Source of the DNA: Pseudobutyrivibrio sp.
Lineage (GTDB): Bacteria; Bacillota; Clostridia; Lachnospirales; Lachnospiraceae
Length of the DNA: 44,784 bases
Assembly: GCA_024693775.1 (NCBI GenBank)
Contig: JAILKL010000027.1
Coordinates: forward strand, 1-44,784
Direction: 5' to 3'
Shown here: positions 25,252-30,099 of the stretch, piece after piece
Layout of the letters: every line of letters begins with the position of its first letter
Position numbering within the stretch: position 1 is the stretch's first letter
Program-made: the position numbers and the translations under genes
The notes under the pieces: generated by a model
Told to the model about the DNA's origin: nothing
Database searches by the model: none
Seen by the model: only the letters and a program-made list of their open reading frames with translations

Positions 25252-27420
25252 TCAATCTTTGTCGATAGTATCCATAGATAGTATCACAATCTCAAAAGCA
25301 TAAAATCCGCTAACCTGATTTCCGCTAAGATATTTGATGAAACAATTGACTGATAGTGAATCCTCACCAATATTTTCCATATATTCCCATTTACCAGTTT
25401 TATAGGCTTTTTTCAAGGCATCATTCAAGCCTATTGGAATAAGCTTATTGGAAGGAATGCTGGCGCCTCCTAGCTTGTCCTCAGTGGTGTAATCTGTCTT
25501 AATAAGGAATTTGGCAAAGGTATTGTTATAGCGTAGGATTCGAGTTGCTCTGTTCTTTACCTCGATTATTCCCATAGGAATCTGGCCAAAGAATTCATCC
25601 AGCTGCCAGTTGTAATCGGCGTTAATCTTTGGCTCCACCAGGTTTGTAGAGCCTATGGTGTTGTAATAGTCCAGCTCATCCTTGTTTTCCATCACAAGAC
25701 CAATTCTACTGTCAAAAATAGTGAACCAATCATTTAATGAAATAGGCTTTGCGTAGTAATAGCCCTGCTGCTTTATGGCACCAATTTCTCTAAGGAATTT
25801 GACCTGTTCTATGGTCTCTACGCCCTCTACTACAGTCTCAATGCCCAGCTTTGTGGCCATTTTTACAAGCTCCTCTAATATGATATGACTCTTTTTAGAC
25901 TCGCCAAATTCTCTCATAAATCTTAGGTCAAATTTGATAGTGTCAAAATCCAGCTTTTGCAAAATATTAAGTGATGAATAGCCACTACCAAAATCGTCCA
26001 TCCATACCTTGAAGCCTGCATCATGAAATCTCTTGATTTGCTCACCAATGTAGCTGATATCAAGAGAGGATACACTCTCTGTAATTTCTATGGTGATATA
26101 ATCTGGGGTAAACTCTGAAGCCTCTACCCTGCTAATAATTTCTCCGACAATATCGCAGAGAACAAAATCATTTCTGGAAAGATTTATAGAAACTGGCACA
26201 AATGGATGACCTGTGTCCTTTGTCTCCTTTAAATCCTCAAGCACTCTATCAAGAAGGTACAAATCCAGCTTGTGAATCAGCTGTGTATCCTCTAAAACCG
26301 GGATAAATTTATCTGGAGGAAGCAAGCCCTTTTCAGGGTCAATCCATCTAGCCAATGCTTCTTCATCACACACGCATCCATTTACAGAACGGACAATTTC
26401 CTGATAATAAGGCAGAATCCATCTGTTTTCCATGGCGCGCTCGAAATTATTTACAACATACTGATGCATTAGCATTTGCTTGTGCAATTCATCGCTATAA
26501 TAATAGTATTTAGAATTGTAAGAGCCACGGCCCTGATCACAGGCGATTTTTGCTCTATCACAGGCTGCGCTGGAGGTTACATCTCCATAGGTAATGGAAT
26601 AAATTCCCACACGCACTGGAAGAGTCTTTTCTTCATTGGCCTTTTGTAGCTCATCAAAAATTTGCTCAAGCTCCTCCTCAAGCCCGTCAGAAGCAGTATA
26701 GGCTGCAAAGTGATCCTGACTAAGCCTTCCGCAATTTTCCGTAGAAAAATGATTTTTAAGGATTTGACCAAATGCGCAAATTAAATTGTCACCTTCGTGG
26801 ATACTATATTTTTGATTGAAGAATTTCATGCCTGTAAGATCAAAAAACAGCATACAGGGAGACAGTCCCTCTTCTATCAATGCCTTTTTTCCTGCGTCTG
26901 CAAGCATGAGAAAATATGACATGTTTGGTAAGCCTGTTAGAGAATCATAGAAATTATCTCTAATCAGACTTTCCTTTTTTAATAAATCCTGATAATTGCT
27001 GGCTATTTCACCAGTTATCTTGTCATCCTGGCCTCCGCCGAGGCCTTCTACCATATACACAGTGGTGGAGAGCATTTCACCGTGTTCTGCGAAATAATGC
27101 TCGCCGTGAGCATGTACGATTACATAGTCATTTATCTTTTTAGACATACTACGGTATACCACATCATAATTGCCTGTGCCTGAGGCAAATTTGTATGCGG
27201 CATCTGCTACTCTGGCTTTGTCATCTGGATGAGTATCCTTGTACATATCCTTGTCGAATAAATCTATAATTTCTTCCTTAGATACCCCCATAAGCTTTGA
27301 CATTCCATCGGTAACCAATAAAGTCACCACTCTGTTGTCGATAAACTGGTAGATGACTAGTGGAATGTTCAGCGCTTCTAAAGCTTTACGTTGTAATTCT
27401 GCAAATTCATATCGTTCCAT
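25252..27420 (-). CDS. PAS-GGDEF-EAL-PAS protein, probable cyclic-di-GMP phosphodiesterase
   Basis: This is a 722-residue cytoplasmic signalling protein without membrane segments. A PAS-like sensor region (about 1-125) is followed by a GGDEF domain (155-315) whose active loop has decayed to RLSQDHF (232-238), so it is unlikely to make cyclic-di-GMP. The EAL domain (about 330-580) keeps the key residues: EALARW (355-360), SINLSRND, EITES, DDFGSGYSS (475-483), KFD and EGVET. It should therefore hydrolyse cyclic-di-GMP. A second PAS-like region (605-720) ends the protein, an unusual position. GGGGAG precedes the ATG. No partner gene is adjacent. Confidence 0.9.
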   Translation of the reverse strand: MERYEFAELQRKALEALNIPLVIYQFIDNRVVTLLVTDGMSKLMGVSKEEIIDLFDKDMYKDTHPDDKARVADAAYKFASGTGNYDVVYRSMSKKINDYVIVHAHGEHYFAEHGEMLSTTVYMVEGLGGGQDDKITGEIASNYQDLLKKESLIRDNFYDSLTGLPNMSYFLMLADAGKKALIEEGLSPCMLFFDLTGMKFFNQKYSIHEGDNLICAFGQILKNHFSTENCGRLSQDHFAAYTASDGLEEELEQIFDELQKANEEKTLPVRVGIYSITYGDVTSSAACDRAKIACDQGRGSYNSKYYYYSDELHKQMLMHQYVVNNFERAMENRWILPYYQEIVRSVNGCVCDEEALARWIDPEKGLLPPDKFIPVLEDTQLIHKLDLYLLDRVLEDLKETKDTGHPFVPVSINLSRNDFVLCDIVGEIISRVEASEFTPDYITIEITESVSSLDISYIGEQIKRFHDAGFKVWMDDFGSGYSSLNILQKLDFDTIKFDLRFMREFGESKKSHIILEELVKMATKLGIETVVEGVETIEQVKFLREIGAIKQQGYYYAKPISLNDWFTIFDSRIGLVMENKDELDYYNTIGSTNLVEPKINADYNWQLDEFFGQIPMGIIEVKNRATRILRYNNTFAKFLIKTDYTTEDKLGGASIPSNKLIPIGLNDALKKAYKTGKWEYMENIGEDSLSVNCFIKYLSGNQVSGFYAFEIVILSMDTIDKD

Positions 27421-27537: not shown

Positions 27538-30099
27538 TTAATCAAGATTGTATTCTTCTCGCAATTCTTTTGCTTTTCGCTCCACCTCTTCAATAAATTC
27601 TCTTGAAGAAATAAGTCTGGCACCAGCTCCTCTAATGATGATTTGCTCTAAGCCATCTGAGGTAACTACCGTAATATCGTATTTTTTGCCATGCTCATGT
27701 GTGAAACGCTCTATATAGGCATCTGCGGTCTGGGCCTCGGCTGTAAATACCTGATGGATGTTGAGGTAATCGCTGGCTTCCACTGGATGTCCCTTTACTC
27801 TGTAGGCATCAAAAACTGCAATAACATTGTAGTCTGTCATGGCCTTGTAATTACTGAGGATATCCAAAAGCTTTCCTCTGGCTCCGTCTAAATTTACATC
27901 CAACACCGCCTTTAATTCTGGCCAGGCATAAATCAGGTTGTAACCATCCACCAGCATATACTTTTCTCTTGGCTTTACAGCCTTTGGTGCCTGGTATACA
28001 TAGTCAGAATCTACTCGTCTAATACGATTTTCTCCGTAGTGCCAGCCTTTTTTAGGATTCTTTCCACCATTGCTGTGGGTGGCCTGACGCAGGATAGAAT
28101 CTATTTCATCTGGGTCTAGCCACTGGTCCATGTCTCTAATGGCACGCTTTGTAGAAGGCATGACCACCTCCTGTGCCTTTGCCTTGTCCTTTAGACAAGG
28201 GACATGACAATGGCCCTTTACCTCATACCATGGAACCACTGTGGCAGCCCCATGAGAGCAAAATACAGAGGATGCTGGATTACGTAAATCCGAATCTGGG
28301 TCGTAGGCAAAGTGTGCCACCACCTCATCCTCATTGTGACATGGCTTGTAGCCCTCTAGAGCCAAATCAATGTGGCCCTGCCCCTTTGTATAGGATATGA
28401 GCTTGGCCTGATAATTGCGTATGTTTACAGCAGGTGCACTGCCCTTTAGTCTGGTCATGCCATTGATATCCTCTGGCATTTCAAAGCTACCGCTCATGGC
28501 CTCAATATCTGTCATGGCCCTACCAATGTGCTCTGTAGGAAGAACAATTTCAAAGCTATAGTATGGCTCTAAAACTGTGGTGCCTGCCTCCATTAAGCCT
28601 TGTCTGATAGCTCGATAGGTGGCCTCTCTAAAATCTCCACCCTCGGTATGCTTGATGTGAGCTCTACCGCCTACTACGGTATATTTTATATCTGTAAGGG
28701 CTCCACCGATTTGGATGCCCACATGTTCCTTTTCTAAAATATGGGTGACTATAAGTCGCTGCCAATTGAGAGCCAAATCATCTGTACCCACATCTGTAGC
28801 CACCTCTATACCACTGCCTGCAAAAAGCGGCTCCATCAAAAGATGTACCTCTGCATAATGTCTAAGAGGCTCAAAGTGACCTACACCCTCTACCGTATTT
28901 GCGATAGTTTCTTTATATAAAACGCCACTTTCCTCAAAGGATACCTGTAGGTTTAGTTCATCTGCAATTCTTTTTGTAAGGATTTCTGTCTGCACCTCTC
29001 CCATGAGATTGATGCGAATCTCCTCGGTGTCCTCGTCCCAGGATACATTTAAGGAAGGGTCCTCCTGATTGAGCTTTAGCAAATCTGGGTATGCCACTCT
29101 AGGTACTGTGTCATCCAAAAAGCTAACCTGATACTGTAAAACAGGATTTAAAAATAATTCGCTGCGGTCCGACTCTGTGCCTAGTCCCTGCCCTGCGAAG
29201 GTATCGTTTGGACCTACAAGTGCAACTATATCTCCTGCAACTGCACTATCCACCTGCGTGTATTTGCTGCCGGAATAAACCCTAATCTGGTCTACCTTTT
29301 CTCCAGTATCTAAAACCTGCTTTACCTTTAGACTACCGCTGACAATCTTTGCAAAGGTAAGTCTAAAATCTCTGCCTAAGGACTCAATTTTATATACCCT
29401 AGCTCCAAAATCTGCTACGTCCTCAGCTGATTTTTCATCAGCGGAATGTGACAGCATTACCATTAGGTTCATAAGCTTGTCTACGCCCTGATTTTTCAAG
29501 GCTGACCCCATGAGAATTGGAAAAATCGATCTGCTCTCAATCAAGGATGTAATAGTGTGCTCTGAAAGTGTATCAGTAGATAAAAACTCCTCCATGGCAC
29601 CCTCGTCTTCTGTGGCGATAGCCTCATAATCCTCTAATAGAACACATCTATCAGATAGCTCATTTTGGATATTAGAAATAAGGGCATCCCTATCTGTGCC
29701 CTCCTGATCCATTTTATTAACAAAAATGATTGTTGGAATGTTGTTTGTAGATAGTAAATTAAACAGAGTCTTGGTGTGAGCCTGCACACCATCTGCTCCG
29801 CTAATAAGTAGAATTGCATAATCCAGCGCCCACATGGCTCTCTCTGTCTCTGTAGAGAAATCCACGTGGCCTGGAGTATCTAACAATGTAAAATCAAAGC
29901 CCTGATATTGAAATCTGGCTGGCTTTGAGAAAATAGTGATACCTCGGGACTTTTCCTGAGAATCTGTATCGAGGAAGGCATCCTGATGATCAACTCGGCC
30001 CAGTTCATTTATAAGCCCACCATTGTATAAAATGGCCTCTGATAATGTAGTTTTTCCCGCATCTACGTGGGCTAAAATTCCCCAAGTCTTATTTTTCAT
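27538..30099 (-). CDS. TetM-like ribosomal GTPase fused to a Rae1/YacP (NYN) endonuclease
   Basis: Residues 1 to about 640 are an EF-G-like ribosomal protection GTPase. They have G1 AHVDAGKTT, RGITIF, DTPGHVDF and NKMD, a TetM-like tail, and a domain IV beginning with LEPYYSFEI. A linker of about 70 residues leads to a NYN nuclease domain (about 712-853) that strongly resembles Bacillus Rae1/YacP: LVDGYNLIYAWPELK, AVFDAYRVKG, TADAYIERF and VVTSDGLEQ. TetM enters the ribosomal A site, and Rae1 cuts mRNA there, so the fusion suggests a factor that recognises and clears particular ribosomes. Classical TetM is about 640 residues and has no such domain. GAGGAGAGG precedes the ATG. It is the fourth gene of the argS operon. 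Tetracycline resistance cannot be assumed. Confidence 0.9.
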   Translation of the reverse strand: MKNKTWGILAHVDAGKTTLSEAILYNGGLINELGRVDHQDAFLDTDSQEKSRGITIFSKPARFQYQGFDFTLLDTPGHVDFSTETERAMWALDYAILLISGADGVQAHTKTLFNLLSTNNIPTIIFVNKMDQEGTDRDALISNIQNELSDRCVLLEDYEAIATEDEGAMEEFLSTDTLSEHTITSLIESRSIFPILMGSALKNQGVDKLMNLMVMLSHSADEKSAEDVADFGARVYKIESLGRDFRLTFAKIVSGSLKVKQVLDTGEKVDQIRVYSGSKYTQVDSAVAGDIVALVGPNDTFAGQGLGTESDRSELFLNPVLQYQVSFLDDTVPRVAYPDLLKLNQEDPSLNVSWDEDTEEIRINLMGEVQTEILTKRIADELNLQVSFEESGVLYKETIANTVEGVGHFEPLRHYAEVHLLMEPLFAGSGIEVATDVGTDDLALNWQRLIVTHILEKEHVGIQIGGALTDIKYTVVGGRAHIKHTEGGDFREATYRAIRQGLMEAGTTVLEPYYSFEIVLPTEHIGRAMTDIEAMSGSFEMPEDINGMTRLKGSAPAVNIRNYQAKLISYTKGQGHIDLALEGYKPCHNEDEVVAHFAYDPDSDLRNPASSVFCSHGAATVVPWYEVKGHCHVPCLKDKAKAQEVVMPSTKRAIRDMDQWLDPDEIDSILRQATHSNGGKNPKKGWHYGENRIRRVDSDYVYQAPKAVKPREKYMLVDGYNLIYAWPELKAVLDVNLDGARGKLLDILSNYKAMTDYNVIAVFDAYRVKGHPVEASDYLNIHQVFTAEAQTADAYIERFTHEHGKKYDITVVTSDGLEQIIIRGAGARLISSREFIEEVERKAKELREEYNLD

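Follow-up and report, generated by a model that had tools for sequence, protein, structure and literature searches.

A GTPase–NYN fusion of Clostridia that appears to take the place of the stand-alone mRNA nuclease Rae1

It is, to our knowledge, an open question how Rae1 locates its target ribosomes. The window analysed here (the whole 44,784-nucleotide stretch of a Pseudobutyrivibrio sp. contig, JAILKL010000027.1) carries a gene in which a Rae1/YacP-like NYN nuclease is joined to a translational GTPase of the EF-G/Tet type, and it raises the question of whether the product is an mRNA nuclease brought to the ribosome by its GTPase, an antibiotic resistance factor, or something else. Since Rae1 is here tied to a GTPase of a type whose access to the ribosome is known, the targeting question becomes addressable by point mutants in one gene. 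In the passages cited here, Rae1 is described as cutting in the ribosomal A site, in dependence on translation and perhaps preferentially when ribosomes have stalled (PMC6613710, PMC10100781), and Tet-type GTPases are described as reaching into the A site (PMC8161019).

The gene is a single uninterrupted open reading frame (ORF) with an ATG start and a product of 853 aa, organised as a GTPase (residues 1–590), a folded tail up to about residue 632, a linker of some 80 aa that is disordered for the most part, and a NYN domain at 713–852 (Table 1). All Pfam domains exceed their gathering cut-offs, including GTP_EFTU (aa 5–215, E = 5.1e-50) and NYN_YacP (aa 715–850, E = 6e-46, 156.9 bits against a gathering score of 24.6), and the marks of the translational GTPase superfamily are all present (P-loop, DTPGH, NKxD, domains II–V). 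Among solved structures, phmmer matched the GTPase half best to TetO (4v6v, 2.9e-76), followed by TetM (3j25/3j9y), and the NYN half to Bacillus subtilis YacP (5mq8/5mq9, E = 1.3e-19); a structural second look listed matches spanning the GTPase only, so the NYN fold is assigned from sequence. The translation contains all four motif strings given in the original prediction (VFDAYRVKG, TADAYIERF and VTSDGLEQ among them). No excess of promoters or terminators over shuffled sequence was found.

Table 1. Features of the fusion gene, in positions of the window (residue numbers of the fusion protein in brackets)
Feature	Position	Strand	Evidence
Fusion gene, EF-G/Tet-type GTPase + Rae1/YacP NYN nuclease	27538..30099	-	ORF, Pfam, AF2
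G domain (aa 5-215), P-loop AHVDAGKT, DTPGH, NKMD	29455..30087	-	Pfam, alignment
Domain II (aa 246-302)	29194..29364	-	Pfam EF-G_D2
Domain III (aa 340-389)	28933..29082	-	Pfam EFG_III
Domain IV (aa 393-505), best-conserved GTPase domain	28585..28923	-	Pfam EFG_IV, identity comparison
Domain IV tip KHTEGGDFR (aa 483-491), replaces Tet SPVSTPADFR loop	28627..28653	-	Alignment
Domain V (aa 509-590)	28330..28575	-	Pfam EFG_C
Conserved folded tail (aa 587-632), C587/C614/H632, candidate metal site	28204..28341	-	Alignment, AF2
Linker (aa 633-712), mostly low model confidence	27964..28203	-	Alignment, AF2
Short linker helix (aa 663-674), ELxxIFxxT-like motif	28078..28113	-	Motif count, AF2
Rae1/YacP NYN domain (aa 713-852), acids D718, D764, D793, E797, D815	27544..27963	-	Pfam, phmmer, alignment, AF2

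The fusion proposed in the original prediction is thereby confirmed: besides the single ORF and its Pfam domains, the whole fusion lies in one frame at 79 of the 80 loci examined (the best 80 of 174 relatives), with L030 as the sole broken frame. This rules out an assembly join or a frame artefact. Broken or adjacent frames (L030, L118, L119 and G192) were described without joining; in L030, L118 and L119 the fusion frames are broken or split, near the linker in L030 and L118, where sequencing error and a natural split are both possible.

The architecture itself is in print. A short passage of Atkinson 2015 (PMC4342817) gives a Tet-NYN architecture in “ten species of clostridiales”, probably the same family as the one described here, and proposes an RNase-based resistance mechanism. 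On this point the original prediction has to be corrected; no experimental work on the fusion was found in open-licence papers. Added here to that passage are the distribution of the fusion, its single origin, the vacated rae1 place and its replacement, the exclusion of stand-alone rae1, the domain IV tip loop and the loss of the Rae1 tail.

The nuclease half keeps its conserved acids, with no loss of them across the homologues compared: D764, D793, E797 and D815 are identical in 111/111 fused and 32/32 stand-alone NYN domains, and D718 in 32/32 stand-alone domains and all 110 fused ones that reach it (the broken frame of L030 begins after this residue). The fused NYN domain has the same acids as Rae1/YacP of B. 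subtilis (5mq8, 5mq9), from which it differs in being attached C-terminally to a GTPase and, in some fused lineages, the window’s included, in having lost the C-terminal tail. Indeed, the window’s NYN domain has 38 residues after D815, against at least 64 in all 32 stand-alone domains, and its NYN_YacP profile match stops at position 138 of 166, short of a full-length tail. A shortened tail (43 residues or fewer after D815) was found in 39/111 fused and 0/32 stand-alone domains, with 24/24 in Pseudobutyrivibrio and 15/87 among the other fused domains. Coherently, the profile match is over by position 155 in 35/54 fused and 0/46 stand-alone rows of the class, in a count made by eye in which an early end can also reflect divergence. 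In B. subtilis, a tail change in Rae1, R166P, was isolated as an efp suppressor, of a class read by its authors, in the passage cited, as loss of function (PMC6613710). The tail may therefore help stand-alone Rae1 on the ribosome, and the GTPase may make it unnecessary in the fusion.

Then, we evaluated how the fused and the stand-alone forms are distributed. Of 200 family genomes, drawn from 199 genera, 179 have NYN_YacP and 21 gave no match. It stands alone in ten genomes (G048, G169, G182, G017, G082, G005, G137, G054, G043 and G022), in frames of 174–260 aa, and 29 further NYN-positive genomes, G001 included, have the NYN domain or the GTPase in frames of 806–1,095 aa. Most of the remaining listed matches lie in frames longer than 840 aa, so that for most listed family rows the fusion was judged from frame length alone; G033, G078, G081, G115, G119, G190 and G192 have shorter or split frames, or frames that a contig end interrupts. 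Two NYN matches were obtained in four family genomes: in G061, G110 and G145 both pieces fit one gene that is cut by a contig end or has a split match, and in G030 another NYN piece, in addition to the fusion, lies at the end of a contig.

In the class (147 genomes), NYN was found in 100 genomes, 54 with a fused or frame-broken fused gene and 46 with a stand-alone one, and the remaining 47 have neither. A fused and a stand-alone copy were never found together over the cut-off (0/147; Fisher 5e-12, not a true probability because the genomes are related). In the phylum, 84 of 149 genomes are over the NYN cut-off, 11 of these in frames longer than 600 aa. The genome of the window, which is 82% complete, has a single NYN_YacP. 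Many gut Clostridia appear to have no Rae1 in the genome other than the fusion, a pattern that suggests an mRNA cutter guided by its motor at the ribosome and not a drug-resistance gene.

The gene order around the old rae1 place is coherent with a replacement. Stand-alone rae1 adjoins rlmB and/or sigH at 8/10 loci of the family (L101 and L105 lie away from this place) and at 22/22 other loci of the class. Its usual setting is a cysS-mrnC-rlmB-rae1-sigH block (names from Pfam on L109), which, beyond the rlmB-rae1 pair, we take to be the gene order of B. subtilis as well. The pair itself, rlmB (yacO) beside rae1, is given for B. subtilis in PMC6613710. All of the 12 fused genomes chosen for comparison have rlmB, and in 11 its neighbour is mrnC. 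A rae1 match next to rlmB was found in none of the 12, the window’s own genome (L215) included; sigH follows rlmB in nine, again including the window’s own, and no sigH match was found in the other three (L206, L210, L211). The change can be seen within one genus, g225: L146 and L147 come from two species with the fusion, and L144 from a third species, in which the old place holds rae1. Compared with related Clostridia, the fusion therefore replaces the stand-alone gene of the block. Taken together, the vacated place, the absence of genomes with both forms and the single NYN_YacP point to a fusion that appears to serve as the cell’s Rae1.

To place the origin of the fusion, the GTPase halves were compared with unfused relatives. 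The 35 fused GTPases form one clade (support 100/99.7), nested among 14 unfused ones, in a tree with six outgroup rows that left out L180, L188, ten further loci and all but 11 named loci. After the addition of eight phylum-level fused rows, with a different row choice and other rows left out, the fused clade was recovered with 99/98; a first tree of 75 rows, with the saturated outgroups L180 and L188, gave the same grouping with a support of 71. L119 was omitted from the GTPase trees, and L118 was labelled as fused although its parts are in overlapping frames. The NYN tree points the same way with less support, one branch separating 51 fused from 32 stand-alone domains (91/86, bootstrap not settled). 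The unfused GTPases end near fusion residue 634, right after the Cys/His tail, which places the fusion joint there. From these comparisons, the simplest account is one fusion event from unfused ancestors. Fused genes from several family codes lie very close together in the tree with phylum rows, which suggests later lateral spread of the fused gene.

Two features of the GTPase half are shared by fused and unfused members. The first is the tail after domain V, whose residues C587, C614 and H632 are kept in 109, 109 and 106 of 110 fused rows and in 16/16 unfused rows each. Such a Cys/His tail was not seen in the aligned Tet rows, and the three residues are a possible metal site. The unfused GTPase of Ligilactobacillus salivarius UCC118 megaplasmid pMP118 (L246:2384-4902) has the HTxGGDFR tip and the Cys/His tail as in the fusion, and ends after the tail with no nuclease; it lies beside rpsN (S14) and beside a 35-aa putative metal homeostasis protein. 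These neighbours, with the Cys/His tail, hint at a zinc link of the unfused GTPase. Some unfused copies are annotated “translation factor GTPase family protein”.

The second feature is the conservation of domain IV. Its median identity is 72% in 29 fused rows, against 43–54% for the other domains, and 66% against 37–47% in the 16 unfused rows. An EF-G control of 20 rows from family genomes is even across domains (77–85%), with the limits that its rows come from one family while the fused rows span the class, and that L225 is probably an antisense ORF. Since domain IV stands out with and without the nuclease and EF-G is even, the probe of the decoding centre seems to have been under special constraint already before the fusion. 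Within Pseudobutyrivibrio, identity is 92% for the NYN domain against 64% for the G domain; among the other 58 fusions, it is 79% for domain IV, 66% for NYN and 64% for the G domain. These values point to strong constraint on domain IV and, within the genus, on the NYN domain.

We therefore kept, as the best reading of the locus, the part of the original prediction that concerns a ribosome-delivered nuclease: the fusion would be a Rae1 permanently mounted on a GTPase that probes the decoding centre and brings it to stalled ribosomes, a reading to which we give an even chance of being right. The GTPase would bind the factor site of ribosomes with an empty A site, and its specialised domain IV tip would probe the decoding centre; GTP hydrolysis would then make domain IV withdraw from the A site, and the NYN domain, kept close by the flexible linker, would enter it and, on a ribosome that has not resumed translation by then, cut the mRNA. 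A Tet-type domain IV and Rae1 would compete for one A site, which makes it doubtful that both act at once, and a hand-off from one to the other is assumed. The role would be a housekeeping one in ribosome surveillance and not an acquired resistance to drugs. A stricter version, in which one polypeptide is a GTP-fuelled surveillance nuclease whose domain IV reads the state of the decoding centre, whose GTP hydrolysis clears the A site and whose Rae1 then cuts the A-site codon, is more speculative, and we consider it somewhat less probable than its opposite. If true, many gut Clostridia would have in this protein a standard rescue factor that cuts mRNA, with the eukaryotic A-site nucleases of no-go decay as its functional counterpart.

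The alternative that survives best is that the two halves share the ribosome and nothing else, with Rae1 attached for co-expression or local concentration and GTP hydrolysis not controlling cleavage; we judge it unlikely, perhaps one case in four. The occurrence of the separate parts is in its favour. Stand-alone rae1 occurs without a fusion-clade GTPase in 42 of 46 class genomes, and, among the 62 class genomes bearing the GTPase, four have it unfused without any NYN (4 of the 47 rae1-less genomes) and four more have it with a separate rae1. Neither gene needs the other, as judged from these genomes. The unfused GTPases in genomes without a NYN_YacP match (L125, L126, L127 and L128) indicate that the GTPase probably also serves a separate function. 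Co-occurrence as a functional proof was dropped, since in the class the proportions are equal (4/46 against 4/47, p = 1). In the family, the GTPase was found in 8/10 genomes with stand-alone rae1 (in G082 its frame is shortened to 541 aa) and 0/20 rae1-less ones (Fisher 8e-6), a comparison that is not independent because losing a fused gene removes both parts. The fusion-clade GTPase was not found in the 20 re-searched of the 21 NYN-less family genomes, which means that the whole fusion is dispensable and, together with the separate parts seen in the class, also weighs against the proposed hand-off. G054 and G178 have, instead of the clade GTPase, a Tet-type 644-aa protein (33 and 32% identity).

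The linker speaks on both sides. It is variable, with a length of 66–107 aa (median 80) in 107 relatives, three fused rows (L118, L041, L167) being left out for want of a motif marking the linker end, and mostly of low model confidence, which suits separate mechanisms. Against them, an ELxxIFxxT-like motif, which coincides with a short helix predicted in the AF2 model, is kept in 86/107 linkers and occurs in 0.2% of shuffled linkers, by a pattern picked after the linkers had been inspected. Furthermore, the union has been retained since its one origin, and the Rae1 tail has been lost in part of the fused lineages. The retained union, the motif and the tail loss suggest that the GTPase took over a function of Rae1, such as ribosome binding, in keeping with the delivery of the nuclease by the GTPase.

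A role in antibiotic response or resistance, with a GTPase that removes a drug from the A site like TetM and a nuclease that adds an RNase step, is in our view improbable. It is suggested in the Atkinson 2015 passage, which names an rRNA RNase ability (PMC4342817), and TetO and TetM are the solved structures nearest to the GTPase in sequence; the annotation TetM/TetW/TetO/TetS family is also given to one of the two plasmid copies of the fusion and to most of the unfused copies listed for Ligilactobacillus. On the Tet model NF012153, however, the fusion scores 396.1 bits and six other clade members (five unfused, one fused) 391–468, against a curated cut-off of 775 and 851.5 bits for a comparison Tet protein (L181). 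Neither does it reach the cut-off of the EF-G model TIGR00484 (257.1 bits against 659.4).

The tip of domain IV differs as well. Pro-509 of TetM sits at this tip in the drug site, according to the passage cited (PMC8161019), and the Tet proteins have SPVSTPADFR or SPASTPADFR there; the Tet-type rows L181, L183, L186 and L189 and TetB(P) (L244) have Pro at the corresponding position, with TetB(P) keeping SPASTPADFR and both L244 and L181 retaining the STPADFR loop (the outgroup counts cover nine rows, including one unrelated ORF each from L182 and L186). In the fusion clade, the proline place is Lys483 in 110/110 fused and 16/16 unfused rows, within an HTxGGDFR tip in 108/110 and 16/16. Compared with Tet(M), Tet(O) and TetB(P), the fusion therefore has about half the curated score, a different tip loop, an extra Cys/His tail and a fused nuclease. 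Plain tetracycline resistance was rejected on the Tet-model score and the tip loop, and the GTPase, on its sequence, is unlikely to be a plain tetracycline resistance factor, as the original prediction had held; the GTPase, described there as TetM/EF-G-like, is not TetM and belongs to a separate clade also found without nuclease.

In addition, the gene is present in most family genera sampled, unlike an acquired gene, and only 2 of 957 matching plasmid records cover at least 80% of the fusion. These points concern tetracycline, and an unknown other drug stays compatible with them, but nothing specific in these analyses points to the drug-response role proposed earlier. Two GTPases (L182:1242-3185 and L185:1928-3943) are intermediate between the fusion clade and the Tet proteins: their Tet-model scores of 606 and 561 bits are both under the cut-off, and their tips read MHSNPGDFL and VHTKAPDFT, with Met and Val at the proline place.

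Of the two plasmid copies, one lies on a 252-kb Agathobacter rectalis plasmid (L245:2971-5772), annotated as a TetM/TetW/TetO/TetS resistance protein, and the other, in a 518-kb record of Monoglobus pectinilyticus, is named translation factor GTPase family protein. The gene is common in Lachnospiraceae and partly annotated as tetracycline resistance, which our results suggest it is not; this would bear on resistome counts.

That the NYN domain targets rRNA or tRNA, for example in ribosome inactivation or recycling, would agree with the role in rRNA and tRNA maturation proposed earlier for NYN domains (Anantharaman and Aravind, via the passage of Atkinson 2015, PMC4342817), but is very improbable, since the fusion stands in for Rae1, which is described as cutting mRNA, and has the same acids as stand-alone Rae1.

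Anti-phage defence was also considered and rejected, with no PADLOC match at E 0.01. Among the loci compared, the fusion has rsmF nearby, in some cases accompanied by argS, yitT, EAL and cbiK, at 19/22 loci (L009–L030) and 0/58 others; as the neighbourhood is conserved at these loci only, the context gives no function. Directly downstream of the fusion gene, the window encodes a PAS-GGDEF-EAL protein (25252-27420), with a match of more than 35% identity at 18 of the same 22 loci and 0/58 others.
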